DNA from: Acanthochromis polyacanthus
Taxonomy: Eukaryota; Chordata; Actinopteri; Pomacentridae
Reading direction: 5' to 3'
Assembly (NCBI RefSeq): GCF_021347895.1
Contig: NC_067131.1
Coordinates: 6,538,653 to 6,602,652 of the forward strand
DNA: 64,000 bases
Part shown: piece by piece, positions 6,953 through 56,553 of the stretch
Position numbering within the stretch: position 1 is the stretch's first letter
How the letters are laid out: each line of letters begins with the position of its first letter
Position numbers and translations under genes: made by a program
Notes under the pieces: model-generated
What the model was told of the DNA's origin: nothing
The model's input: only the letters and a program-made list of their open reading frames with translations
Databases searched by the model: none

Positions 6953-15751
<8,799 letters not shown>

Positions 15752-18323: not shown

Positions 18324-18490
18324 GTTTTGTGACATTAGGTTTAACCCAATAAATATGCAAAAAAAAAAAAAAACATCATGGTTTAGTATGTCGTGCAAAA
18401 TACTGATGTTTTTGTAATATTTTGGATGACATACTGAACTATGAAGTTTTTTTTTACATATTTAATGGGTTAACCCTAATGTCACAAAAC
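18324..18490. mobile_element. Palindromic MITE-like element, apparent founder of the adjacent satellite
   Basis: The two ends are near-perfect inverted repeats. The left end starts GTTTTGTGACATTAGG with TTTAACCCAATAAATATG after it; the right end contains CATATTTAATGGGTTAACCC and closes CTAATGTCACAAAAC. The arms continue inward through a poly(A)/poly(T) block and then a GTTTAGTATGTCGTGCAAAA half mirrored by TTTTGGATGACATACTGAAC, meeting at about 18405. It is the only copy in the region with both arms. Every later spacer in the array is only its right half. Confidence 0.78.
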
Positions 18491-21400
18491 CATCATGGTT
18501 TGGTATGTCGTCCAAAATATGGAAAAACGTCATAGTTTATAGTATGTGGTCCAAAATATGAAAAAAAAGTCATAGTTTAGTATGTGGTTCAAAATATGAA
18601 AAAAAGTCATAGTTTCGTATGTGGTTCAAAATATGAAAAAAAAGTCATAGTTTAGTATGTGGTCCAAAATATGAAAAAAAAGTCATAGTTTCGTATGTGG
18701 TTCAAAATATGAAAAAAAAGTCATAGTTTAGTATGTGGTCCAAAATATGAAAAAAAGTCATAGTTTAGTATGTGGTTCAAAATATGAAAAAAAAGTCATA
18801 GTTTCGTATGTGGTTCAAAATATGAAAAAAAAGTCATAGTTTAGTATGTGGTCCAAAATATGAAAAAAAAGTCATAGTTTCGTATGTGGTTCAAAATATG
18901 AAAAAAAGTCATAGTTTAGTATGTGGTCCAAAATATGAAAAAAAAGTCATAGTTTAGTATGTGGTTCAAAATATGAAAAAAAGTCATAGTTTAGTATGTG
19001 GTCCAAAATATGAAAAAAAAGTCATAGTTTCGTATGTGGTTCAAAATATGAAAAAAAAGTCATAGTTTAGTATGTGGTCCAAAATATGAAAAAAAAAGTC
19101 ATAGTTTAGTATGTGGTTCAAAATATGAAAAAAAGTCATAGTTTCGTATGTGGTTCAAAATATGAAAAAAAAGTCATAGTTTAGTATGTGGTCCAAAATA
19201 TGAAAAAAAGTCATAGTTTAGTATGTGGTTCAAAATATGAAAAAAAAGTCATAGTTTAGTATGTGGTCCAAAATATGAAAAAAACGTCATAGTTTCGTAT
19301 GTGGTTCAAAATATGAAAAAAAAGTCATAGTTTCGTATGTGGTCCAAAATATGAAAAAAACGTCATAGTTCCGTATGTGGTCCAAAATATGAAAAAAAAG
19401 TCATAGTTTAGTATGTGGTCCAAAATATGAAAAAAAAAAGTCATAGTTCCGTATGTGGTCCAAAATATGAAAAAAAAGTCATAGTTTAGTATGTGGTCCA
19501 AAATATGAAAAAAACGTCATAGTGTAGTATGTCGTCCAAAATATGGAAAAAACGTCATAGTTTCGTATGTGGTCCAAAATATGAAAAAAAGTCAGAGTTT
19601 AGTATGTCGTGCAAAATACTGATGTTTTTGTAATATTTTGGATGACATACTGAATTATGAAGTTTTTTTGTACATATTTAATGGGTTAACCCTAATGTCA
19701 CAAAACCATCATGGTTTAGTATGTGGTCCAAAATATGAAAAAAAAGTCATAGTTTAGTATGTGGTCCAAAATATGAAAAAAATGTCATAGTTTCGTATGT
19801 GGTCCAAAATATGAAAAAACGTCATAGTTTACTATGTCGTCCAAAATATGAAAAAAAGTCATAGTTTCGTATGTGGTCCAAAATATGAAAAAAAAAGTCA
19901 TAGTTTAGTATGTGGTCCAAAATGTGAAAAAAAGTCATAGTTTAGTATGTGGTCCAAAATATGAAAAAAACGTCATAGTTTCGTATGTGGTCCAAAATAT
20001 GAAAAAAACGTCATAGTTCCGTATGTGGTCCAAAATATGAAAAAAAAGTCATAGTTTAGTATGTGGTCCAAAATATGAAAAAAACGTCATAGTTTACTAT
20101 GTCGTCCAAAATATGGAAAAAACGTCATAGTTTCGTATGTGGTCCAAAATATGAAAAAAAGTCAGAGTTTAGTATGTCGTGCAAAATACTGATGTTTTTG
20201 TAATATTTTGGATGACATACTGAATTATGAAGTTTTTTTTGTACATATTTAATGGGTTAACCCTAATGTCACAAAACCATCATGGTTTAGTATGTGGTCC
20301 AAAATATGAAAAAAAAGTCATAGTTTAGTATGTGGTCCAAAATATGAAAAAAATGTCATAGTTTCGTATGTGGTCCAAAATATGAAAAAACGTCATAGTT
20401 TACTATGTCGTCCAAAATATGAAAAAAAAGTCATAGTTTCGTATGTGGTCCAAAATATGAAAAAAAAAGTCATAGTTTAGTATGTGGTCCAAAATGTGAA
20501 AAAAAGTCATAGTTTAGTATGTGGTCCAAAATATGAAAAAACGTCATAGTTTCGTATGTGGTCCAAAATATGAAAAAAACGTCATAGTTCCGTATGTGGT
20601 CCAAAATATGAAAAAAAAGTCATAGTTTAGTATGTGGTCCAAAATATGAAAAAAACGTCATAGTTTACTATGTCGTCCAAAATATGGAAAAAACGTCATA
20701 GTTTCGTATGTGGTCCAAAATATGAAAAAAAGTCAGAGTTTAGTATGTCGTGCAAAATACTGATGTTTTTGTAATATTTTGGATGACATACTGAATTATG
20801 AAGTTTTTTTTTTACATATTCAATGGGTTAACCCTAATGTCACAAAACCATCATGGTTTAGTATGTGGTCCAAAATATGAAAAAAAAGTCATAGTTTAGT
20901 ATGTGGTCCAAAATATGAAAAAAATGTCATAGTTTAGTATGTGGTCCAAAATATGAAAAAAAAAAGTCATAGTTCCGTATGTGGTCCAAAATATGAAAAA
21001 AAGTCATAGTTTAGTATGTGGTCCAAAATATGAAAAAAACGTCATAGTGTAGTATGTCGTCCAAAATATGGAAAAAACGTCATAGTTTCGTATGTGGTCC
21101 AAAATATGAAAAAAAAGTCAGAGTTTAGTATGTCGTGCAAAATACTGATGTTTTTGTAATATTTTGGATGACATACTGAATTATGAAGTTTTTTTGTACA
21201 TATTTAATGGGTTAACCCTAATGTCACAAAACCATCATGGTTTAGTATGTGGTCCAAAATATGAAAAAAAAGTCATAGTTTAGTATGTGGTCCAAAATAT
21301 GAAAAAAATGTCATAGTTTCGTATGTGGTCCAAAATATGAAAAAACGTCATAGTTTACTATGTCGTCCAAAATATGAAAAAAAAGTCATAGTTTCGTATG

Positions 21401-21569
21401 TGGTCCAAAATATGAAAAAAAAAGTCATAGTTTAGTATGTGGTCCAAAATGTGAAAAAAAGTCATAGTTTAGTATGTGGTCCAAAATATGAAAAAAACGT
21501 CATAGTTTCGTATGTGGTCCAAAATATGAAAAAAACGTCATAGTTCCGTATGTGGTCCAAAATATGAAA

Positions 21570-24500
21570 AAAAAGTCATAGTTTAGTATGTGGTCCAAAA
21601 TATGAAAAAAACGTCATAGTTTACTATGTCGTCCAAAATATGGAAAAAACGTCATAGTTTCGTATGTGGTCCAAAATATGAAAAAAAGTCAGAGTTTAGT
21701 ATGTCGTGCAAAATACTGATGTTTTTGTAATATTTTGGATGACATACTGAATTATGAAGTTTTTTTTTTTACATATTCAATGGGTTAACCCTAATGTCAC
21801 AAAACCATCATGGTTTAGTATGTGGTCCAAAATATGAAAAAAAAGTCATAGTTTAGTATGTGGTCCAAAATATGAAAAAAATGTCATAGTTTAGTATGTG
21901 GTCCAAAATATGAAAAAAACTGTGATAGTTTCGTATGTGGTCCAAAATATGATAAAACGTCATAGTTTACTATGTCGTCCAAAATATGAAAAAACGTCAT
22001 AGTTTACTATGTCGTCCAAAATATGAAAAAAAGTCATAGTTTAGTATGTGGTTCAAAATATGAAAAAAACGTCATAGTTTCGTATGTGGTCCAAAATATG
22101 AAAAAAAACGTCATAGTTTAGTATGTTGTCCAAAATATGAAAAAAAAGTCATAGTTTCGTATGTGGTCCAAAATATGAAAAAAAAAGTCATAGTTTCGTA
22201 TGTGGTCCAAAATATGAAAAAAGTCATAGTTTCGTATGTGGTCCAAAATATGAAAAAAAAGTCATAGTTTAGTATGTCGTCCAAAATACTGATGTTTTTG
22301 TAATATTTTGGATGACATACTGAATTATGAAGTTTTTTTTTACATATTTAATGGGTTAACCCTAATGTCACAAAACCATCATGGTTTAGTATGTGGTCCA
22401 AAATATGAAAAAAAAGTCATAGTTTAGTATGTGGTCCAAAATATGAAAAAAATGTCATAGTTTCGTATGTGGTCCAAAATATGAAAAAACGTCATAGTTT
22501 ACTATGTCGTCCAAAATATGAAAAAAAAGTCATAGTTTACTATGTCGTCCAAAATATGAAAAAAAAGTCATAGTTTAGCATGTCGTCCAAAATATGAAAA
22601 AAAAGTCATAGTTTCGTATGTGGTCCAAAATATGAAAAAAACGTCATAGTTTCGTATGTGGTCCAAAATATGAAAAAAAACGTCATAGTTTAGTATGTGG
22701 TCCAAAATATGAAAAAAAAGTCATAGTTTCGTATGTCGTCCAAAATATGAAAAAAAAAAGTCATAGTTTAGCATGTGGTCCAAAATATGAAAAAACGTCA
22801 TAGTTTACTATGTCGTCCAAAATATGAAAAAAAGTCATAGTTTAGGATGTCGTGCAAAATACTGATGTTTTTGTAATATTTTGGATGACATACTGAATTA
22901 TGAAGTTTTTTTATTACATATTTAATGGGTTAACCCTAATGTCACAAAACCATCATGGTTTAGTATGTGGTCCAAAATATGAAAAAAAGTCATAGTTTAG
23001 TATGTGGTCCAAAATATGAAAAAAATGTCATAGTTTCGTATGTGGTCCAAAATATGAAAAAACGTCATAGTTTACTATGTCGTCCAAAATATGAAAAAAA
23101 ACGTCATAGTTTAGTATGTTGTCCAAAATATGAAAAAAACGTCATAGTTTCGTATGTGGTCCAAAATATGAAAAAAAAGTCATAGTTTCGTATGTGGTCC
23201 AAAATATGAAAAAAAACGTCATAGTTTAGTATGTGGTCCAAAATATGAAAAAAAAGTCATAGTTTTGTATGTGGTCCAAAATATGAAAAAAAACGTCATA
23301 GTTTAGTATGTGGTCCAAAATATGAAAAAAAAAGTCATAGTTTCGTATGTGGTCCAAAATATGAAAAAAAAGTCATAGTTTCGTATGTGGTCCAAAATAT
23401 GAAAAAAAACGTCATAGTTTAGTATGTGGTCCAAAATATGAAAAAAAAGTCATAGTTTAGTATGTGGTTCAAAATATGATAAAAACGTCATAGTTTTGTA
23501 TGTGGTCCAAAATATGAAAAAAAACGTCATAGTTTAGTATGTGGTCCAAAATATGAAAAAAAAGTCATAGTTTCGTATGTGGTCCAAAATATGAAAAAAA
23601 AGTCATAGTTTAGGATGTCGTGCAAAATACTGATGTTTTTGTAATATTTTGGATGACATACTGAATTATGAAGTTTTTTTATTACATATTTAATGGGTTA
23701 ACCCTAATGTCACAAAACCATCATGGTTTAGTATGTGGTCCAAAATATGAAAAAAAAGTCATAGTTTAGCATGTGGTCCAAAATATGAAAAAAAAGTCAT
23801 AGTTTCGTATGTGGTCCAAAATATGAAAAAAAAGTCATAGTTTACTATGTCGTCCAAAATATGGAAAAAACGTCATAGTTTCGTATGTGGTCCAAAATAT
23901 GAAAAAAAAGTCATAGTTTAGGATGTCGTGCAAAATACTGATGTTTTTGTAATATTTTGGATGACATACTGAATTATGAAGTTTTTTTATTACATATTTA
24001 ATGGGTTAACCCTAATGTCACAAAACCATCATGGTTTAGTATGTGGTCCAAAATATGAAAAAAAAGTCATAGTTTAGCATGTGGTCCAAAATATGAAAAA
24101 AATGTCATAGTTTCGTATGTGGTCCAAAATATGAAAAAACGTCATAGTTTACTATGTCGTCCAAAATATGAAAAAAAAGTCATAGTTTCGTATGTGGTCC
24201 AAAATATGAAAAAAAAAGTCATAGTTTAGTATGTGGTCCAAAATGTGAAAAAAAGTCATAGTTTAGTATGTGGTCCAAAATATGAAAAAAAAGTCATAGT
24301 TTAGTATGTGGTCCAAAATATGAAAAAAATGTCATAGTTTCGTATGTGGTCCAAAATATGAAAAAACGTCATAGTTTACTATGTCGTCCAAAATATGAAA
24401 AAAAACGTCATAGTTTAGTATGTTGTCCAAAATATGAAAAAAACGTCATAGTTTCGTATGTGGTCCAAAATATGAAAAAAAAGTCATAGTTTCGTATGTG

Positions 24501-27500
24501 GTCCAAAATATGAAAAAAAACGTCATAGTTTAGTATGTGGTCCAAAATATGAAAAAAAAGTCATAGTTTTGTATGTGGTCCAAAATATGAAAAAAAACGT
24601 CATAGTTTAGTATGTGGTCCAAAATATGAAAAAAAAAAGTCATAGTTTCGTATGTGGTCCAAAATATGAAAAAAAAGTCATAGTTTCGTATGTGGTCCAA
24701 AATATGAAAAAAAACGTCATAGTTTAGTATGTGGTCCAAAATATGAAAAAAAAGTCATAGTTTAGTATGTGGTTCAAAATATGATAAAAACGTCATAGTT
24801 TTGTATGTGGTCCAAAATATGAAAAAAAACGTCATAGTTTAGTATGTGGTCCAAAATATGAAAAAAAAGTCATAGTTTCGTATGTGGTCCAAAATATGAA
24901 AAAAAAGTCATAGTTTAGGATGTCGTGCAAAATACTGATGTTTTTGTAATATTTTGGATGACATACTGAATTATGAAGTTTTTTTATTACATATTTAATG
25001 GGTTAACCCTAATGTCACAAAACCATCATGGTTTAGTATGTGGTCCAAAATATGAAAAAAAGTCATAGTTTAGCATGTGGTCCAAAATATGAAAAAAAGT
25101 CATAGTTTCGTATGTGGTCCAAAATATGAAAAAAAAGTCATAGTTTACTATGTCGTCCAAAATATGGAAAAAACGTCATAGTTTCGTATGTGGTCCAAAA
25201 TATGAAAAAAAAGTCATAGTTTAGGATGTCGTGCAAAATACTGATGTTTTTGTAATATTTTGGATGACATACTGAATTATGAAGTTTTTTTATTACATAT
25301 TTAATGGGTTAACCCTAATGTCACAAAACCATCATGGTTTAGTATGTGGTCCAAAATATGAAAAAAAAGTCATAGTTTAGCATGTGGTCCAAAATATGAA
25401 AAAAATGTCATAGTTTCGTATGTGGTCCAAAATATGAAAAAACGTCATAGTTTACTATGTCGTCCAAAATATGAAAAAAAAGTCATAGTTTCGTATGTTG
25501 TGCAAAATACTGATGTTTTTGTAATATTTTGGATGACATACTGAATTATGAAGTTTTTTTTTACATATTTAATGGGTTAACCCTAATGTCACAAAACCAT
25601 CATGGTTTAGTATGTTGTCCAAAATATGAAAAAACGTCATAGTTTAGTATGTGGTCCAAAATATGAAAAAAAAGTCATAGTTTCGTATGTGGTCCAAAAT
25701 ATGAAAAAAAAGTCATAGTTTCGTATGTGGTCCAAAATATGAAAAAAAAGTCATAGTTTAGTATGTCGTCCAAAATATGAAAAAACGTCATAGTTTACTA
25801 TGTCGTCCAAAATATGAAAAAAAAGTCATAGTTTCGTATGTGGTCCAAAATATGAAAAAAACGTCATAGTTTACTATGTCGTCCAAAATATGAAAAAAAA
25901 AGTCATAGTTTAGCATGTGGTCCAAAATATGAAAAAACGTCATAGTTTAGCATGTGGTCCAAAATATGAAAAAAATGTCATAGTTTCGTATGTGGTCCAA
26001 AATATGAAAAAACGTCATAGTTTACTATGTCGTCCAAAATATGAAAAAAAAGGTCATAGTTTCGTATGTGGTCCAAAATATGAAAAAAAGTCATAGTTTA
26101 GTATGTGGTCCAAAATACTGATGTTTTTGTAATATTTTGGATGACATACTGAATTATGAAGTTTTTTTTTACATATTTAATGGGTTAACGCTAATGTCAC
26201 AAAACCATCATGGTTTAGTATGTGGTCCAAAATATGAAAAAAAAAGTCATAGTTTAGCATGTGGTCCAAAATATGAAAAAAATGTCATAGTTTAGTATGT
26301 GGTCCAAAATATGAAAAAACGTCATAGTTTACTATGTCGTCCAAAATATGAAAAAAAGTCATAGTTTCGTATGTCGTGCAAAATACTGATGTTTTTGTAA
26401 TATTTTGGATGACATACTGAATTATGAAGTTTTTTTTTTACATATTTAATGGGTTAACCCTAATGTCACAAAACCATCATGGTTTAGTATGTCGTCCAAA
26501 ATATGGAAAAACGTCATAGTTTAGTATGTGGTCCAAAATATGAAAAAAAAAAGTCATAGTTTCGTATGTGGTCCAAAATATGAAAAAAACATCATAGTTT
26601 AGTATGTGGTCCAAAATATGAAAAAAAACGTCATAGTTTAGTATGTTGTCCAAAATATGAAAAAAACGTCATAGTTTAGTATGTGGTCCAAAATATGAAA
26701 AAAAAAGTCATAGTTTAGTATGTGGTCCAAAATATGAAAAAAAAGTCATAGTTTCGTATGTGGTCCAAAATATGAAAAAAAACGTCATAGTTTAGTATGT
26801 GGTCCAAAATATGAAAAAAAAAGTCATAGTTTCGTATGTGGTCCAAAATATGAAAAAAAACGTCATAGTTTAGTATGTGGTCCAAAATATGAAAAAAAGT
26901 CATAGTTTAGTATGTCGTCTAAAATATGGAAAAAACGTCATAGTTTAGTATGTGGTCCAAAATATGAAAAAAAAGTCATAGTTTCGTATGTGGTCCAAAA
27001 TATGAAAAAAACATCATAGTTTAGTATGTGGTCCAAAATATGAAAAAAAAGTCATAGTTTAGTATGTGGTCCAAAATATGAAAAAAAAGTCATAGTTTCG
27101 TATGTGGTCCAAAATATGAAAAAAAAGTCATAGTTTCGTATGTGGTCCAAAATATGAAAAAAAAGTCATAGTTTCGTATGTGGTCCAAAATATGAAAAAA
27201 AATGTCATAGTTTAGTATGTGGTCCAAAATATGAAAAAAAAAGTCATAGTTTCGTATGTGGTCCAAAATATGAAAAAAAACGTCATAGTTTAGTATGTGG
27301 TCCAAAATATGAAAAAAACGTCATAGTTTACTATGTCGTCCAAAATATGAAAAAAAAGTCATAGTTTAGCATGTGGTCCAAAATATGAAAAAAACGTCAT
27401 AGTTTAGCATGTGGTCCAAAATATGAAAAAAACGTCATAGTTTAGCATGTCGTCCAAAATATGGAAAAACGTCATAGTTTACGATGTCGTCCAAAATATG

Positions 27501-27930
27501 GAAAAAACGTCATAGTTCCGTATGTGGTCCAAAATATGAAAAAAAAGTCATAGTTTCGTATGTGGTCCAAAATATGAAAAAAAAGTCATAGTTTAGTATG
27601 TCGTGCAAAATACTGATGTTTTTGTAATATTTTGGATGACATACTGAATTATGAAGTTTTTTTTTTTACATATTTAATGGGTTAACCCTAATGTCACAAA
27701 ACCATCATGGTTTAGTATGTGGTCCAAAATATGAAAAAAAGTCATAGTTTAGTATGTGGTCCAAAATATGAAAAAAATGTCATAGTTTAGTATGTCGTCC
27801 AAAATATGAAAAAAAACGTCATAGTTTAGTATGTGGTCCAAAACATGAATAAACGTCATAGTTTACTATGTCGTTCAAAATATGAAAAAAAAGTCATAGT
27901 TTCGTATGTGGTCCAAAATATGAAAAAAAG
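21570..27930. repeat. First copy of a ~6.36 kb tandem duplication inside the satellite
   Basis: Spacer-to-spacer distances from 21718 are about 572, 572, 768, 311, 996, 305, 268, 609, 267 and 1229 bp. The same series recurs from 28072. Rare variants (GGGTTAACGCTAATG at 26190, ACATGAATAAACG at 27843, GATAAAACG at 21951) each reappear about 6355-6362 bp later. Confidence 0.88.
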
Positions 27931-30900
27931 TCATAGTTTAGTATGTGGTCCAAAATATGAAAAAAACGTCATAGTTTACTATGTCGTCCAAAATATGGAA
28001 AAAACGTCATAGTTTCGTATGTGGTCCAAAATATGAAAAAAAAGTCAGAGTTTAGTATGTCGTGCAAAATACTGATGTTTTTGTAATATTTTGGATGACA
28101 TACTGAATTATGAAGTTTTTTTTTTACATATTCAATGGGTTAACCCTAATGTCACAAAACCATCATGGTTTAGTATGTGGTCCAAAATATGAAAAAAAAG
28201 TCATAGTTTAGTATGTGGTCCAAAATATGAAAAAAATGTCATAGTTTAGTATGTGGTCCAAAATATGAAAAAAACTGTCATAGTTTCGTATGTGGTCCAA
28301 AATATGATAAAACGTCATAGTTTACTATGTCGTCCAAAATATGAAAAAACGTCATAGTTTACTATGTCGTCCAAAATATGAAAAAAAGTCATAGTTTAGT
28401 ATGTGGTTCAAAATATGAAAAAAACGTCATAGTTTCGTATGTGGTCCAAAATATGAAAAAAAACGTCATAGTTTAGTATGTTGTCCAAAATATGAAAAAA
28501 AAGTCATAGTTTCGTATGTGGTCCAAAATATGAAAAAAAAGTCATAGTTTCGTATGTGGTCCAAAATATGAAAAAAAGTCATAGTTTCGTATGTGGTCCA
28601 AAATATGAAAAAAAAGTCATAGTTTAGTATGTCGTCCAAAATACTGATGTTTTTGTAATATTTTGGATGACATACTGAATTATGAAGTTTTTTTTTACAT
28701 ATTTAATGGGTTAACCCTAATGTCACAAAACCATCATGGTTTAGTATGTGGTCCAAAATATGAAAAAAAAGTCATAGTTTAGTATGTGGTCCAAAATATG
28801 AAAAAAATGTCATAGTTTCGTATGTGGTCCAAAATATGAAAAAACGTCATAGTTTACTATGTCGTCCAAAATATGAAAAAAAAGTCATAGTTTACTATGT
28901 CGTCCAAAATATGAAAAAAAAAGTCATAGTTTAGCATGTCGTCCAAAATATGAAAAAAAAGTCATAGTTTCGTATGTGGTCCAAAATATGAAAAAAACGT
29001 CATAGTTTCGTATGTGGTCCAAAATATGAAAAAAAACGTCATAGTTTAGTATGTGGTCCAAAATATGAAAAAAAAGTCATAGTTTCGTATGTCGTCCAAA
29101 ATATGAAAAAAAAAAGTCATAGTTTAGCATGTGGTCCAAAATATGAAAAAACGTCATAGTTTACTATGTCGTCCAAAATATGAAAAAAAAGTCATAGTTT
29201 AGGATGTCGTGCAAAATACTGATGTTTTTGTAATATTTTGGATGACATACTGAATTATGAAGTTTTTTTATTACATATTTAATGGGTTAACCCTAATGTC
29301 ACAAAACCATCATGGTTTAGTATGTGGTCCAAAATATGAAAAAAAAGTCATAGTTTAGTATGTGGTCCAAAATATGAAAAAAATGTCATAGTTTCGTATG
29401 TGGTCCAAAATATGAAAAAACGTCATAGTTTACTATGTCGTCCAAAATATGAAAAAAAACGTCATAGTTTAGTATGTTGTCCAAAATATGAAAAAAACGT
29501 CATAGTTTCGTATGTGGTCCAAAATATGAAAAAAAAAGTCATAGTTTCGTATGTGGTCCAAAATATGAAAAAAAACGTCATAGTTTAGTATGTGGTCCAA
29601 AATATGAAAAAAAAGTCATAGTTTTGTATGTGGTCCAAAATATGAAAAAAAACGTCATAGTTTAGTATGTGGTCCAAAATATGAAAAAAAAAAGTCATAG
29701 TTTCGTATGTGGTCCAAAATATGAAAAAAAAGTCATAGTTTCGTATGTGGTCCAAAATATGAAAAAAAACGTCATAGTTTAGTATGTGGTCCAAAATATG
29801 AAAAAAAAGTCATAGTTTAGTATGTGGTTCAAAATATGATAAAAACGTCATAGTTTTGTATGTGGTCCAAAATATGAAAAAAAACGTCATAGTTTAGTAT
29901 GTGGTCCAAAATATGAAAAAAAAGTCATAGTTTCGTATGTGGTCCAAAATATGAAAAAAAAGTCATAGTTTAGGATGTCGTGCAAAATACTGATGTTTTT
30001 GTAATATTTTGGATGACATACTGAATTATGAAGTTTTTTTATTACATATTTAATGGGTTAACCCTAATGTCACAAAACCATCATGGTTTAGTATGTGGTC
30101 CAAAATATGAAAAAAAAGTCATAGTTTAGCATGTGGTCCAAAATATGAAAAAAAAGTCATAGTTTCGTATGTGGTCCAAAATATGAAAAAAAAGTCATAG
30201 TTTACTATGTCGTCCAAAATATGGAAAAAACGTCATAGTTTCGTATGTGGTCCAAAATATGAAAAAAAAGTCATAGTTTAGGATGTCGTGCAAAATACTG
30301 ATGTTTTTGTAATATTTTGGATGACATACTGAATTATGAAGTTTTTTTATTACATATTTAATGGGTTAACCCTAATGTCACAAAACCATCATGGTTTAGT
30401 ATGTGGTCCAAAATATGAAAAAAAAGTCATAGTTTAGCATGTGGTCCAAAATATGAAAAAAATGTCATAGTTTCGTATGTGGTCCAAAATATGAAAAAAC
30501 GTCATAGTTTACTATGTCGTCCAAAATATGAAAAAAAAGTCATAGTTTCGTATGTGGTCCAAAATATGAAAAAAAAAGTCATAGTTTAGTATGTGGTCCA
30601 AAATGTGAAAAAAAGTCATAGTTTAGTATGTGGTCCAAAATATGAAAAAAAAGTCATAGTTTAGTATGTGGTCCAAAATATGAAAAAAATGTCATAGTTT
30701 CGTATGTGGTCCAAAATATGAAAAAACGTCATAGTTTACTATGTCGTCCAAAATATGAAAAAAAACGTCATAGTTTAGTATGTTGTCCAAAATATGAAAA
30801 AAACGTCATAGTTTCGTATGTGGTCCAAAATATGAAAAAAAAGTCATAGTTTCGTATGTGGTCCAAAATATGAAAAAAAACGTCATAGTTTAGTATGTGG

Positions 30901-33900
30901 TCCAAAATATGAAAAAAAAGTCATAGTTTTGTATGTGGTCCAAAATATGAAAAAAAACGTCATAGTTTAGTATGTGGTCCAAAATATGAAAAAAAAAGTC
31001 ATAGTTTCGTATGTGGTCCAAAATATGAAAAAAAAGTCATAGTTTCGTATGTGGTCCAAAATATGAAAAAAAACGTCATAGTTTAGTATGTGGTCCAAAA
31101 TATGAAAAAAAAGTCATAGTTTAGTATGTGGTTCAAAATATGATAAAAACGTCATAGTTTTGTATGTGGTCCAAAATATGAAAAAAAACGTCATAGTTTA
31201 GTATGTGGTCCAAAATATGAAAAAAAAGTCATAGTTTCGTATGTGGTCCAAAATATGAAAAAAAAGTCATAGTTTAGGATGTCGTGCAAAATACTGATGT
31301 TTTTGTAATATTTTGGATGACATACTGAATTATGAAGTTTTTTTATTACATATTTAATGGGTTAACCCTAATGTCACAAAACCATCATGGTTTAGTATGT
31401 GGTCCAAAATATGAAAAAAAAGTCATAGTTTAGCATGTGGTCCAAAATATGAAAAAAAAGTCATAGTTTCGTATGTGGTCCAAAATATGAAAAAAAAGTC
31501 ATAGTTTACTATGTCGTCCAAAATATGGAAAAAACGTCATAGTTTCGTATGTGGTCCAAAATATGAAAAAAAGTCATAGTTTAGGATGTCGTGCAAAATA
31601 CTGATGTTTTTGTAATATTTTGGATGACATACTGAATTATGAAGTTTTTTTATTACATATTTAATGGGTTAACCCTAATGTCACAAAACCATCATGGTTT
31701 AGTATGTGGTCCAAAATATGAAAAAAAAGTCATAGTTTAGCATGTGGTCCAAAATATGAAAAAAATGTCATAGTTTCGTATGTGGTCCAAAATATGAAAA
31801 AACGTCATAGTTTACTATGTCGTCCAAAATATGAAAAAAAAGTCATAGTTTCGTATGTTGTGCAAAATACTGATGTTTTTGTAATATTTTGGATGACATA
31901 CTGAATTATGAAGTTTTTTTTTTACATATTTAATGGGTTAACCCTAATGTCACAAAACCATCATGGTTTAGTATGTTGTCCAAAATATGAAAAAACGTCA
32001 TAGTTTAGTATGTGGTCCAAAATATGAAAAAAAAGTCATAGTTTCGTATGTGGTCCAAAATATGAAAAAAAAGTCATAGTTTCGTATGTGGTCCAAAATA
32101 TGAAAAAAAAGTCATAGTTTAGTATGTCGTCCAAAATATGAAAAAACGTCATAGTTTACTATGTCGTCCAAAATATGAAAAAAAAGTCATAGTTTCGTAT
32201 GTGGTCCAAAATATGAAAAAAACGTCATAGTTTACTATGTCGTCCAAAATATGAAAAAAAAAGTCATAGTTTAGCATGTGGTCCAAAATATGAAAAAACG
32301 TCATAGTTTAGCATGTGGTCCAAAATATGAAAAAAACGTCATAGTTTAGCATGTCGTCCAAAATATGGAAAAAACGTCATAGTTCCGTATGTGGTCCAAA
32401 ATATGAAAAAAAAGTCATAGTTTCGTATGTGGTCCAAAATATGAAAAAAAAGTCATAGTTTAGTATGTGGTCCAAAATACTGATGTTTTTGTAATATTTT
32501 GGATGACATACTGAATTATGAAGTTTTTTTTTACATATTTAATGGGTTAACGCTAATGTCACAAAACCATCATGGTTTAGTATGTGGTCCAAAATATGAA
32601 AAAAAAGTCATAGTTTAGCATGTGGTCCAAAATATGAAAAAATGTCATAGTTTAGTATGTGGTCCAAAATATGAAAAAACGTCATAGTTTACTATGTCGT
32701 CCAAAATATGAAAAAAAAGTCATAGTTTCGTATGTCGTGCAAAATACTGATGTTTTTGTAATATTTTGGATGACATACTGAATTATGAAGTTTTTTTTTT
32801 ACATATTTAATGGGTTAACCCTAATGTCACAAAACCATCATGGTTTAGTATGTCGTCCAAAATATGGAAAAACGTCATAGTTTAGTATGTGGTCCAAAAT
32901 ATGAAAAAAAAAAGTCATAGTTTCGTATGTGGTCCAAAATATGAAAAAACATCATAGTTTAGTATGTGGTCCAAAATATGAAAAAAAAACGTCATAGTTT
33001 AGTATGTTGTCCAAAATATGAAAAAAACGTCATAGTTTAGTATGTGGTCCAAAATATGAAAAAAAAAGTCATAGTTTAGTATGTGGTCCAAAATATGAAA
33101 AAAAGTCATAGTTTCGTATGTGGTCCAAAATATGAAAAAAAACGTCATAGTTTAGTATGTGGTCCAAAATATGAAAAAAAAAGTCATAGTTTCGTATGTG
33201 GTCCAAAATATGAAAAAAAACGTCATAGTTTAGTATGTGGTCCAAAATATGAAAAAAAAGTCATAGTTTAGTATGTCGTCTAAAATATGGAAAAAACGTC
33301 ATAGTTTAGTATGTGGTCCAAAATATGAAAAAAAAGTCATAGTTTCGTATGTGGTCCAAAATATGAAAAAAACATCATAGTTTAGTATGTGGTCCAAAAT
33401 ATGAAAAAAAAGTCATAGTTTAGTATGTGGTCCAAAATATGAAAAAAAAGTCATAGTTTCGTATGTGGTCCAAAATATGAAAAAAAAGTCATAGTTTCGT
33501 ATGTGGTCCAAAATATGAAAAAAAGTCATAGTTTCGTATGTGGTCCAAAATATGAAAAAAAATGTCATAGTTTAGTATGTGGTCCAAAATATGAAAAAAA
33601 AAGTCATAGTTTCGTATGTGGTCCAAAATATGAAAAAAAACGTCATAGTTTAGTATGTGGTCCAAAATATGAAAAAAACGTCATAGTTTACTATGTCGTC
33701 CAAAATATGAAAAAAAAGTCATAGTTTAGCATGTGGTCCAAAATATGAAAAAAACGTCATAGTTTAGCATGTGGTCCAAAATATGAAAAAAACGTCATAG
33801 TTTAGCATGTCGTCCAAAATATGGAAAAACGTCATAGTTTACGATGTCGTCCAAAATATGGAAAAAACGTCATAGTTCCGTATGTGGTCCAAAATATGAA

Positions 33901-34290
33901 AAAAAAGTCATAGTTTCGTATGTGGTCCAAAATATGAAAAAAAGTCATAGTTTAGTATGTCGTGCAAAATACTGATGTTTTTGTAATATTTTGGATGACA
34001 TACTGAATTATGAAGTTTTTTTTTTACATATTTAATGGGTTAACCCTAATGTCACAAAACCATCATGGTTTAGTATGTGGTCCAAAATATGAAAAAAAGT
34101 CATAGTTTAGTATGTGGTCCAAAATATGAAAAAAATGTCATAGTTTAGTATGTCGTCCAAAATATGAAAAAAAACGTCATAGTTTAGTATGTGGTCCAAA
34201 ACATGAATAAACGTCATAGTTTACTATGTCGTTCAAAATATGAAAAAAAAGTCATAGTTTCGTATGTGGTCCAAAATATGAAAAAAAGTC
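27930..34290. repeat. Second copy of the ~6.36 kb tandem duplication
   Basis: Spacer distances from 28072 are about 576, 572, 771, 309, 996, 306, 269, 609, 268 and 1226 bp, matching the first copy to within a few bases; the differences are mostly poly(A) lengths. Both block borders are estimated to within roughly 50 bp. Confidence 0.88.
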
Positions 34291-36416
34291 ATAGTTTAGT
34301 ATGTCGTCCAAAATATGAAAAAAAAGTCATAGTTTAGTATGTGGTCCAAAATATGAAAAAAAAGTCATAGTTTCATATGTGGTCCAAAATATGAAAAAAA
34401 CGTCATAGTTTACTATGTCGTCCAAAATATGGAAAAAACGTCATAGTTCCGTATGTGGTCCAAAATATGAAAAAAACTTCATAGTTTCGTATGTGGTCCA
34501 AAATATGAAAAAAAAGTCATAGTTTAGTATGTGGTCCAAAATATGAAAAAAAAGTCATAGTTTCGTATGTGGTCCAAAATATGAAAAAAACGTCATAGTT
34601 TAGTATGTGGTGCAAAATACTGATGTTTTTGTAATATTTTGGATGACATACTGAACTATGAAGTTTTTTTTTTACATATTTAATGGGTTAACCCTAATGT
34701 CACAAAACCATCATGGTTTAGTATGTGGTCCAAAATATGAAAAAAAAGTCATAGTTTAGTATGTGGTCCAAAATATGAAAAAAATGTCATAGTTTCGTAT
34801 GTGGTCCAAAATATGAAAAAACGTCATAGTTTACTATGTCGTCCAAAATATGAAAAAAAAGGTCATAGTTTCGTATGTGGTCCAAAATATGAAAAAAAAG
34901 TCATAGTTTAGTATGTCGTCCAAAATATGAAAAAAAAGTCATAGTTTCGTATGTGGTCCAAAATATGAAAAAAAGTCATAGTTTAGTATGTGGTCTAAAA
35001 TATGAAAAAAAACGTCATAGTTTACTATGTCGTCCAAAATATGAAAAAAAACGTCATAGTTTAGTATGTGGTCCAAAATATGAAAAAAAAGTCATAGTTT
35101 AGTATGTCGTCTAAAATATGGAAAAAACGTCATAGTTTAGTATGTGGTGCAAAATACTGATGTTTTTGTAATATTTTGGATGACATACTGAACTATGAAG
35201 TTTTTTTTTTACATATTTAATGGGTTAACCCTAATGTCACAAAACCATCATGGTTTAGTATGTGGTCCAAAATATGAAAAAAACGTCATAGTTTCGTATG
35301 TGGTCCAAAATATGAAAAAACGTCATAGTTTACTATGTCGTCCAAAATATGAAAAAAAAGTCATAGTTTCGTATGTGGTCCAAAATATGAAAAAAAGTCA
35401 TAGTTTAGTATGTCGTCCAAAATATGAAAAAAAGTCATAGTTTCGTATGTGGTCCAAAATATGAAAAAAAAGTCATAGTTTCGTATGTGGTCCAAAATAT
35501 GAAAAAAAAGTCATAGTTTAGTATGTGGTCTAAAATATGAAAAAAAACGTCATAGTTTACTATGTCGTCCAAAATATGAAAAAAAACGTCATAGTTTAGT
35601 ATGTGGTGCAAAATACTGATGTTTTTGTAATATTTTGGATGACATACTGAACTATGAAGTTTTTTTTTTACATATTTAATGGGTTAACACTAATGTCACA
35701 AAACCATCATGGTTTAGTATGTCGTCCAAAATATGGAAAAACGTCATAGTTTACTATGTCGTCCAAAATATGAAAAAATGTCATAGTTTACTATGTCGTC
35801 CAAAATATGAAAAAAAACGTCATAGTTTCGTATGTGGTCCAAAATATGAAAAAAAAGTCATAGTTTAGTATGTGGTCTAAAATATGAAAAAAAACGTCAT
35901 AGTTTACTATGTCGTCCAAAATATGAAAAAAAAACGTCATAGTTTAGTATGTGGTCTAAAATATGGATAAAACGTCATAGTTTAGTATGTCGTCCAAAAT
36001 CTGGAAAAAAAGTCATAGTTTAGTATGTCATCCAAAATGTGAAAAAAAGTCATAGTTTAGTATGTGGTCTAAAATATGAAAAAACGTCATAGTTTAGTAT
36101 GTGGTCCAAAATATGAAAAAAAAGTCATAGTTTAGTATGTGGTCTAAAATATGGAAAAAACGTCATAGTTTAGTATGTCGTCCAAAATCTGGAAAAAAAG
36201 TCATAGTTTAGTATGTCATCCAAAATATGAAAAAACGTCACAGTTTAGTATGTCGTCCAAAATATGAAAAAACGTCATAGTTTAGTATGTCATCCAAAAT
36301 ATGAAAAAAAAGTCAAAGTTTAGTATGTCATCCAAAATATGGAAAAAAACGTCATAGTTTAGTATGTGGTCCAAAATATGGAAAAAAACGTCATAGTTTA
36401 GTATGTCATCCAAAAT

Positions 36417-36541
36417 GGAGGAAGGCGGAAGACATGCAACAGAAGGGCTGCAAGCGGGAATTGAACCCGGACCGCTGTGTCGGACACCAGTTCCTGTATG
36501 TGATTAACCCACTTAATCCATTGAGCTATACGGCCGCCCCC
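36417..36541 (-). mobile_element. tRNA-derived SINE copy 1 (tail missing) at the array inversion point
   Basis: On the minus strand it begins GGGGGCGGCCGTATAGCTCA. A-box-like TAGCTCAATGGATTAAG lies at about 36514-36530 and B-box-like GGTTCAATTCC at 36457-36467. The two boxes are further apart than in a normal tRNA. The body continues through GCAGCCCTTCTGTTGCATGT and stops at satellite sequence, without the AAAGGCTC tail seen in copies 2 and 3. Confidence 0.75.
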
Positions 36542-36689
36542 TTTTCCATATTTTGGACAACATACTAAAGTATGACTTTTTGTCATATTTTGAAGACATA
36601 CTAAACTTTGACGTTTTTTCATATTTTGGACGCCATACTAAAGTATGATTTTTTGTCATATTTTGGAAGACATACTAGACTGACATTTT

Positions 36690-37621
36690 TTTTATTTTTG
36701 AGCCTTTATTTGACGGGGTGGCTGAATCCCAAACCGCCCCCTACACACTATCCCTACACACCACCCCTCCGTTTGCGCGTTCCCGTGGAGGGTCCTCCAT
36801 ATTAAGGGCCGTCCCAAACCGCGTAGTGCGGAGGAAGAGTGGACTGTTCAGCCCTTAAATAGCGAGTCTGCATTGATGCTCACTCTGGACAACTTTTTCA
36901 GGAAGTGCAACGTCGAAATGGAGGAGGAAACAACATATTGATGTGAGTTCCACATGCGTCCATTATTTCTCCCACACCTTTTTCACACTGACAGAACATC
37001 ACAAAAAGAGTGATGTAAAAAGATAAATCAAAAGAAACAAATCTTCTTCTCTGCTGACGTTTGATTTAATTGTGCACCCCCTGACACCTTAAAATTTGAA
37101 CACAACTGACAGAATTCATTTATTCATTTATTCATTTGTTGGATTTGAAATGCCAGATAATAGGATTGGAAAAAATATGAGTGAAAAAAGTGGGATGCTT
37201 TCGTCTTCTGGAAGCAGCAGCGATCCTTGTTAGTTGCAACCTGTGCCACAGTGCTACAGCCATGCACAGTAGGCGTCTTTGTGTTACCATGGCGATGACG
37301 TCTTCCGTTTTCCGGTGAGGCGACAGGGCGTCCCATTCCTGACAATCGTATTTATACCCTCCCCCTTCAATAATAGGTGCCCTCCACAGCTGCGAGTGTG
37401 ACTTCTTTTGGAGTGACACTCGGTAGTGGAGGGGGAGTGTGTCGGGGGCGGTTTGGGATTCAGCCGGTAAGTGAATGAGTTACAGGAAACGGGGGAGAAG
37501 AGTGGGGGAAGACATGCAACAGAAGGGCTGCGAGCGGGAATTGAACCCAGGCCGCTGTGTCAAACACCAGTTCCTGTATGTGATTAACCCACTTAAACCA
37601 TTGAGCTATACGGCCGCCCCC
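36690..37621 (-). mobile_element. tRNA-derived SINE copy 2, split by a DNA transposon
   Basis: The head (minus strand, from 37621) has the same GGCGGCCGTATAGCTCAATG start and GGTTCAATTCC B box as copy 1. The body runs to 37466, is interrupted by the element at 36720-37465, and resumes at 36719-36690 as the tail containing AAAGGCTCAAAAA. Confidence 0.78.
36720..37465. mobile_element. 746 bp non-autonomous TIR DNA transposon inside SINE copy 2
   Basis: The ends are inverted repeats: GGCTGAATCCCAAACCGCCC at the left, and its reverse complement GGGCGGTTTGGGATTCAGCC closing at 37465. An apparent 3 bp target duplication (GGT, 36717-36719 and 37466-37468) would fit PIF/Harbinger-type elements, but three bases are weak evidence. 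No transposase frame is present. The neighbouring SINE halves become continuous when the element is removed, which confirms the borders. Confidence 0.82.
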
Positions 37622-37859
37622 TTTTCTGTATTTTGGACGACGTGCTAAACTATGACCTTTTTTTTTCCATATTTTGGACAACATACTAAAGTATGTTATT
37701 TTTTTCATATTTTGGATGACATACTAAACTGACTTTTTTTCCATATTTTGGACCACATACTAAACTATGATGGTTTTGTCATATTTTGGACGACATACTA
37801 AACTACAGCGTTTTTTTTCATATTTTGGATGACATACTAAACTTTGACTTTTTTTTTTT

Positions 37860-38043
37860 TTTAAATTTTTGAGCCTTTTTTCAACAGGGTAAGTGAGTGA
37901 GTTACAGGGAATGTGGGAGAAGAGTTGGGGGAAGACATGCAGCAAAGGGCCGTGAGCGGGAATTGAACCCGGGCCACTGCGTCGGACACCAGCTCCTGTA
38001 CATGATTAGCCCACTTAAACCACTGAGCTATTCAGTCGCCCCC
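37860..38043 (-). mobile_element. tRNA-derived SINE copy 3 (full length)
   Basis: On the minus strand it runs from GGGGGCGACTGAATAGCTCA through a GGTTCAATTCC B box and the shared body (CTTCCCCCAACTC, CCTGTAACTCACTCACTTAC) to a tail with AAAAAGGCTCAAAAATTTAA. The A-box half has more substitutions than copies 1 and 2. Confidence 0.78.
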
Positions 38044-38265
38044 TTTTCAATATTTTGGACGACATACTAAACTATGATGTTTTTTTCATATTTTGATGAC
38101 ATACAAAAGTATGACGTTTTTGTCATATTTTGGACAACATACTAGACTATGATGTTTTTTTTCCAATATTTTGGATGACATACTAAAATATGTTTTTGTC
38201 ATATTTTGGATGATATACTAAATTATGACTTTTTGGTCACATTTTGGACGACATGCTACGTCCAG

Positions 38266-38559
38266 TACAGGGCTATGAGCTCAAATGAAAGCTGTATCAT
38301 ATTTAACTTTAAACCCTAGAAGTTCTTGCAACATTCAACCACCATATCACACCCTATATACAACATTCAGAATTAGGTAGAGATGCAGGAGGCATTTTAA
38401 TGCTTTTATGATTCTTATTTATAGAGTGAACATGTGTATTGGCAGAGAAGGCGTCCATACTGCCCAAGCTTCTGCAGTTAGATTTCCTTGTTGGACGTTC
38501 AGGATCAGTGTATGTCAGGAAATAAACACAAGTCCACTTTTGTATCTTCTTCTGAACAT
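38266..38559. other. Short unique stretch between satellite and glud1 3' end
   Basis: No monomers, gene or repeat family is recognised. It separates the last degenerate satellite unit from the probable glud1 poly(A) signal. Confidence 0.5.
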
Positions 38560-39459
38560 TTTATTGGTTTCAAAAAAATATGAATAAAATAAAAATAGAA
38601 AGTAATTTCCTCCAAAATAATTTTGATGCTGAGAAACTGGACGGTTACAACTGAGGAAAATTCAACCAGGGGCTGGGCGATCACAGTGACACCTCGCCCA
38701 GTCCCTGCTCCTCTTTCTTGGCCAGTGGAGGATTCGGGGAGAAGCTGCGTTTAGGACAAAAGCGACAGGAAGGGAGGAGAAAAAAAAAACCGTCAAAGAG
38801 GGCGATGAGTACGGGAGCATCCACTGAATCCTAAACAGTAAAAACACTATGAAAAAAAAAAAAGAAAGTTCTTCTTGGGAATTCGAAATCTTGGCAACTT
38901 CACCACTAATCTTTACACCTTAAGAGTGAGAAGACAAACTCGACAGCAATAAAATTGTCTTTTATTCACATGAAATTAATTCTAAATCCCTTTTAATAAG
39001 TGCTAGACTGAAGTGGCCGTCTCCTTTTCAGAGCAGACCTCTTTCTGAAATAAGGCATCTGTAGTGCTGTCAACTGAAACAAATGCAACACATGCATTCA
39101 GCGACCGCAAAAAGAGGCGAGGACACGGCTGCCGTACAACAACATCACTAACGTAGTGGCTGAAGGAGGGACAAGTTCTTTTATTCCCTCTTGTGATGGC
39201 GCGCTCTGTTTTATCTCAGGCAAAAACTAGAACAGGGCCGATATCTAAACAGAGATGTGATGGCAGCACAAAGATCACAGGATAAATAGCGGACTCGCCA
39301 ACGTGTCGCTGCATGTGTGCGCGTGAAAGAGCCAACGAGCTGCGGTAAACAGTGATATGTTCTGAAGGCTGTTTCTAGGAGGTGGAGGGAGGCGGGAGAG
39401 GAGGATCGATAGCAGGAGGGCCGGAGGAAGGGAGTAAAGCGTGGGTCCCGATTGGACGC
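38560..39459 (-). other. glud1 3'UTR with poly(A) signal
   Basis: A TTTATT at 38560-38565 is AATAAA on the minus strand, about 0.9 kb past the glud1 stop, and is the first good signal after it. This places the 3'UTR at roughly 38540-39459. The exact cleavage site is not visible. Confidence 0.55.

Positions 39460-56553
<17,094 letters not shown>

Follow-up and report, generated by a model that had tools for sequence, protein, structure and literature searches.

The 64,000-nt stretch of the Acanthochromis polyacanthus genome analysed here (RefSeq assembly GCF_021347895.1, contig NC_067131.1, positions 6,538,653 to 6,602,652; hereafter the window, in whose coordinates all positions are given) contains a short palindromic element resembling a miniature inverted-repeat transposable element (MITE) or a foldback element, an adjoining tandem array of 37-38-bp monomers punctuated by truncated halves of that element (here called spacers), and, head to head with this array, an inverted array of the same monomer (Table 1). 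An earlier, sequence-only reading had placed the locus in the sncg-glud1 interval, which holds at the level of the gene families: a synuclein-family exon lies near 6953-7078, its matches in the PDB being named alpha-synuclein or a fusion with it, and a GLUD1-type exon lies on the minus strand near 56.1-56.6 kb, but sncg itself was not distinguished.

As had been proposed, the palindrome at the left edge of the array has two arms, and no other copy in the window possesses both ends; the palindrome stops at 18490, and the limit of 18600 given previously falls 110 bp inside the array. Its outer arms of 44 nt are 93% complementary (3 differences), which agrees with the definition of a MITE as a short element with terminal inverted repeats (TIRs). 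The inner arms (18365-18402 and 18418-18455) are 87% complementary and are separated by 15 nt. Each arm contains one monomer-like unit, the right arm holding slightly more than one period, and the inner monomers of the two arms differ at 8 of 34 sites. The single-stranded DNA fold of 18324-18466 reaches -27.7 kcal/mol versus a mean of -11.97 for shuffled sequences (z -6.24; none of 200 shuffles equalled it).

The two termini differ in number, the left one being present once in the window and the right one 30 times. A search with GTTTTGTGACATTAGG, allowing for up to 3 mismatches, returned 33 matches compared to 1.26 expected, namely a single exact one on the plus strand (at 18324) with two weak ones elsewhere, and 30 on the minus strand, 27 of them exact and 3 with one mismatch. 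The 30 ends of the GTCACAAAAC type comprise that of the element and 29 in the array. No copy of the element was found in the window beyond 18.3-38.3 kb. The sequence to its left is unique and not monomeric, and its right flank is an array monomer. No target-site duplication was found around it, so that its mobility is putative; the 6-7 nt that end the left flank reappear within 36401-38600 at 37097-37098 alone, and there they lie in an insert. When viral and genome contigs were scanned for exact patterns of the TIR and monomer, no matches were obtained; being viral and prokaryotic DNA, these collections are uninformative on fish. Six sequence words of the monomer and TIR were not found in the open-access literature.

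Table 1. Features of the palindromic element, the arrays and their inserts in the window.
Feature	Position	Strand	Remarks
167-bp palindromic (MITE/foldback-like) element	18324..18490	none	sole copy with both termini in the window
Left TIR	18324..18367	+	present once in the window
Left-arm monomer-like unit (ATCATGG...GTGCAAAATAC)	18373..18403	+	edges by eye
Right-arm unit	18403..18447	-	exceeds one monomer, enters start of next (ATATTACAAAAACATCA)
Right TIR	18447..18490	-	outer end found 29 further times within the array
Tandem array of 37-38-bp monomers with 29 truncated half-elements	18493..36419	+	units of 5-30 monomers from spacer to spacer
Long tandem duplication, first copy	21712..27700	+	offset about 6.36 kb
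Long tandem duplication, second copy	28068..34058	+	9 mismatches in 5977 aligned bases
Spacer-free right edge of plus-strand array	35705..36419	+	divergence 0.108 vs. 0.068 in the interior
SINE-like insert, copy 1	36420..36541	-	boundary of plus-strand and inverted arrays; edges by inspection
Inverted array of the same monomer	36542..38262	-	spacer-free, most diverged class, broken by inserts
SINE-like insert, copy 2	36686..37622	-	split by TIR-bearing insert 36720-37465; edges by eye
SINE-like insert, copy 3	37857..38041	-	inside inverted array; edges by eye

Tandem Repeats Finder delimits the array at 18493-36416 with a period of 38, and a scan with the monomer core (up to 6 mismatches) counts 412 monomers on the plus strand between 18381 and 36396, the left arm included, with no cores in the window outside 18.3-38.3 kb. 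The steps that contain a spacer measure 117-119 nt, i.e., one 38-nt monomer and about 80 nt more. The sequence-only reading had counted 30 spacers, each corresponding exactly to the right half of the element. There are in fact 29, the thirtieth copy being the element itself, and the right half is indeed what they contain, although their likeness to the element begins slightly earlier, inside the left-arm monomer (from about 18393), and continues through the centre and the right arm to 18490. The left-arm sequence GTGCAAAATAC is present in 26 of the 30 copies (spacers and element together), and the left TIR in none of the 29 spacers.

When the T-run is ignored, the 30 copies fall into five haplotypes. 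That of the element is shared by two of the three rightmost spacers, the third being one base away; GAACTATGAAG is common to the element and all three, while the remaining 26 spacers carry GAATTATGAAG. At the right end, the junction sequence CACAAAACCATCATGGTTT is identical in 30 of 30 copies, the next base being A in 29 and G beside the element. This identity is best explained by one junction event that was followed by amplification, and the results support the descent of the spacers from an element of this type. The locus is a composite of an element and a tandem array with common sequence, such as has been described for Xstir and miDNA4 (see below).

The intervals between spacers behave as higher-order units. 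Compared by eye, units 1, 2, and 4 are identical type for type, and unit 27 begins with the same four monomer types. Since units share left-to-right runs of monomer types, the monomers appear to have diverged before the spacer multiplied. Distances between monomers at the same position in different units range from 0.026 to 0.094 when counted from the left spacer and from 0.039 to 0.093 when counted from the right one, a mixed outcome against the any-pair distance of 0.067 within a unit; this comparison covers 19 of 30 units, with units 17-26 (the second duplication copy) and 29 (the open end) dropped. The long tandem duplication is the longest step in the growth of the array, and its two copies differ, besides the mismatches given in Table 1, by 26 single-base gaps. 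The adjoining stretches 19615-21140 and 21141-22700, compared as a control, show 48 mismatches over 1517 aligned bases, with 52 gap positions. Growth of the array by unequal exchange or template switching agrees with these observations, the last step being recent; an assembly error may also explain the duplication. The first unit after the element (18493-19615) is dense in GGTTCAAAATA monomers that form a short local pattern, and one of the two types also occurs singly in other units; this is apparently a separate local expansion.

The sequence-only reading derived the satellite monomer from the inner part of an arm of this element. A monomer-like unit does lie inside each arm, but the left arm does not behave as the parent: among the ordinary monomers (n = 352), none is nearer to it, 328 are nearer to the right arm and 24 are ties. 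The mean number of matches, out of 37, is 30.8 for the right arm, 28.9 for the left arm and 33.3 for the inverted array, for which the best unit was chosen each time; on that basis the right arm is outmatched by the inverted array in 344 of the 352. Compared with the consensus of the right edge, the left arm differs at 6 of 34 sites (2, 7, 22, 30, 31, and 32). Its bases at sites 7, 22, 30, and 31 occur in none of the ordinary monomers. They are typical of monomers bordering spacers: all 30 after-spacer monomers have G at site 7, 25 of the 29 before-spacer monomers have G at site 22, and all 29 of the latter share the left-arm state of sites 30 and 31. Among the 16 monomers of the inverted array, the left arm's base at the six sites, in the order given above, is found in 8, 1, 0, 1, 2, and 6. 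From this pattern of sites, the left arm appears close to a recombinant that joins the 5' side of an after-spacer monomer to the 3' side of a before-spacer monomer, from which it departs by one base at site 0 (the 5' edge). Such a hybrid would be expected if a run of monomers had collapsed to one unit; expansion may also explain it.

The 38-nt junction monomer that follows each spacer was compared together with the final 7 bases of the right TIR. Against the inverted array, which offers the longer target for matching, it agrees at 37 positions in 24 copies, 36 in 5, and 35 in the one beside the element, and against the left arm of the element at only 32 (27 copies) or 33 (3 copies). The sequence ACAAAACCATCAT is confined in the window to the two arrays, with 30 occurrences in the plus-strand array and one in the inverted array. 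The tail of the right arm agrees with the in-register continuation of the inverted array at 8.0 of 12 positions, compared to 6.33 for shuffled sequences (equalled by 12 of 2000 shuffles); it resembles a monomer-monomer junction of that array, which suggests that tandem monomers preceded the palindrome, although slippage seeded from the tail would look alike. For the left arm of this copy, the evidence is against its being the source of the monomers. We also considered a tandem duplication of the element from its own left arm, with a joint at AAAAC; it would explain the single left TIR, but was rejected in view of the after-spacer monomer being nearer to the inverted array.

The inverted array consists of 15 or 16 monomers, depending on the cut-off, with no TIR or spacer between 36542 and 38262 and no right TIR at its outer end near 38262. 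Its mean pairwise edit distance is 0.236 (0.178 for the core alone and 0.208 for the 12 of 16 monomers with a clean core). The corresponding means are 0.067 for the bulk of the plus-strand array (3000 sampled pairs; 0.068 with all bulk pairs, and 0.069 for the first 150 of 334 monomers compared without gaps), 0.106 for its right edge, and 0.019 for after-spacer monomers. The inverted array is, therefore, about three times as diverged as the bulk (0.24 vs. 0.07). The sequence-only reading had named arrays of the same monomer elsewhere, lacking the spacer and predating it, as a finding that would contradict it; the inverted array is a local form of this, with divergence as only indirect evidence of its age.

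Three related inserts interrupt or border the inverted array, and by inspection alone they resemble tRNA-derived short interspersed elements (SINEs); neither ARAGORN (run in its bacterial setting) nor Rfam at gathering scores reported any hit in the window. Copy 1, at the boundary of the two arrays, is devoid of the 3' part present in copy 3, which suggests that the plus-strand array was joined there after this copy had inserted. All three share one phase relative to the inverted monomers, possibly owing to an insertion preference for the T-run or to duplication of a block. Within copy 2 lies a further insert, about 746 bp long and bounded by 40-nt TIRs (90% complementary); its flanks suggest, by eye, a 3-bp GGT duplication. 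Further to the right, an AAG-rich purine tract occupies 40317-40586.

The explanation we favour, and regard as probable, is that the locus holds a non-autonomous member of a MITE/foldback family with 37-38-bp minisatellite monomers in its arms, the copy at the edge having collapsed and a half-element having formed a higher-order unit with old monomers. The proposed layout of such an element would be TIR, n monomers, centre, m inverted monomers, TIR. The monomer array would have been present before the spacers multiplied, with the inverted array as its remnant, and the palindrome at 18324 would represent the left extremity of one such element, in which the plus arm has been reduced to one hybrid monomer. 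The right terminus would have been joined once to a monomer of the old type across a short ACAAAAC match. Several already diverged monomers together with the truncated half-element would then have been multiplied by unequal exchange or template switching, yielding 29 spacers devoid of the left TIR, and the tandem duplication with the 6.36-kb offset would be the last large step. Of this, the anatomy of the locus, the common junction, the higher-order units, the relative divergences and the distances between arms and monomers are observed; the mobility of the element, the sequence of events, a collapse of the left arm in preference to its expansion, and any part of hairpins in copying are deduced.

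Several observations weigh against this explanation. The left end, bordering unique sequence, is the expected place of a founder, and in its right half the element has the state of the three rightmost spacers. Two of the six left-arm bases are found in some ordinary monomers, at site 2 (4 of 352) and site 32 (26 of 352). The distances are based on units of 34-38 nt. Mean distances to the bulk differ little (0.212 for the right arm, 0.216 for the inverted array, and 0.238 for the left arm), the right arm being the nearest on this measure; of 15 single monomers of the inverted array, 10 lie closer to the bulk than the left arm does, 1 lies equally close and 4 lie farther away. The ungapped divergence of the inverted array (0.274) is inflated by indels, and its divergence may reflect escape from homogenisation and not age. 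No target-site duplication was found for the element. Finally, the fold of the spacer unit does not exceed expectation (z -1.39; equalled by 19 of 200 shuffles), and hairpin-driven copying of the spacer is consequently unsupported; a stretch of plain monomers folds better than its shuffles (z -4.47).

The model of the sequence-only reading, in which a solitary MITE inserted and one of its arms was amplified by slippage into the 18-kb satellite, the parent remaining at the left edge, is supported insofar as the spacers derive from such an element, but not in deriving the monomers from its arm. The single two-ended copy with unique sequence outside it, the identical junctions, the sharing of GAACTATGAAG by the element and the three rightmost spacers, and a 3-nt match (TCA, by eye) 38 nt apart in the right arm that could have seeded slippage all speak for it. 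However, the ordinary monomers wholly lack four of the six distinguishing left-arm bases and are nearer to the oppositely oriented right arm, the monomer-monomer junction of the array is not seen by eye in the left arm, and a more diverged, spacer-free inverted array adjoins. The evidence leans against this simple founder story, which we consider unlikely as a whole and possible above all if a longer ancestral element, and not the copy at 18324, was the parent.

Less likely still is the insertion of a MITE at the edge of an unrelated 37-38-bp minisatellite, with its right half swept into the higher-order repeats. The composition of the spacer steps and the near identity of the after-spacer monomer to a monomer of the inverted array speak for it, but the presence of the monomer in both arms is unexpected for an unrelated MITE, a target-site duplication is not seen, and the left flank is unique and not monomeric. 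We give little credence to the view that no transposon is involved, in which case the palindrome would have arisen where the edge of a minisatellite was locally duplicated in inverted orientation, and its TIR would be an ordinary spacer sequence. This would agree with the failure to find a target duplication and with the confinement of all other copies in the window to the array, but not with the symmetric ends of the palindrome, whose TIRs (3 of 44 sites different) are more alike than its inner monomers, as in an element with terminal repeats.

The class to which our favoured explanation assigns the locus, i.e., MITE or foldback elements with internal minisatellite repeats, is already known from Tetris, Xstir, and miDNA4. 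Xstir of Xenopus (Hikosaka and Kawahara 2004; reviewed in PMC12628747 and PMC9659126) occurs in MITE, tandem-array, and composite forms, its tandem repeats, like those described here, are related to inner MITE sequence, and stem-loop copying has been proposed for it. The present locus differs in sequence and host and in the recurrence of a truncated half with one kind of end. In miDNA4 of Xenopus tropicalis (Scalvenzi and Pollet 2014; PMC12628747, PMC9659126), a repeat is present within the MITE as one unit or as a variable array, with copy number altered by microhomology. The occurrence of the monomer as a single unit or an array is similar here, but the monomers lie in both arms, in inverted orientation. 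Tetris of Drosophila virilis (PMC4079207) is a foldback element with tandem repeats (TIR-220) within its TIRs, the arrays of which grew inside the element and fed satellites; its MITE-like relative DAIBAM was probably derived by deletion. While Tetris has repeats of about 220 bp, target duplications of 8-10 bp, and a location in beta-heterochromatin, the repeats described here are 37-38 bp long, no target duplication is seen, and the locus lies between two genes. Tandem MITEs are also known in CMITE of Acropora (PMC2872659), where the arrays consist of full-sized MITEs and not of half-elements with minisatellite monomers between them. In fish, an amplification model built on the zebrafish Angel MITE and a satellite of Monopterus albus derived from a long terminal repeat are noted in the reviews cited above (PMC12628747, PMC9659126); in the open-access literature, mostly in the opening parts of abstracts, we noticed no teleost case of MITE-to-satellite conversion with a two-ended copy adjoining.

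The conversion of transposable elements into satellites is documented (PMC12628747, PMC9659126), but whether an element made an array or an array shaped an element is hard to decide. At the locus described here, a two-ended element and truncated copies still lie next to a young array and to a more diverged inverted array that contains inserts. It is conceivable, though rather unlikely, that these represent one cycle of a foldback minisatellite element, in which an arm expanded, one terminus was lost through a single microhomology junction, the remaining terminus was captured and became a higher-order marker, and the edge copy collapsed to a minimal MITE. If this cycle is true, the solitary MITEs of this family would have arisen by the collapse of arrays and would not be the parents of arrays.
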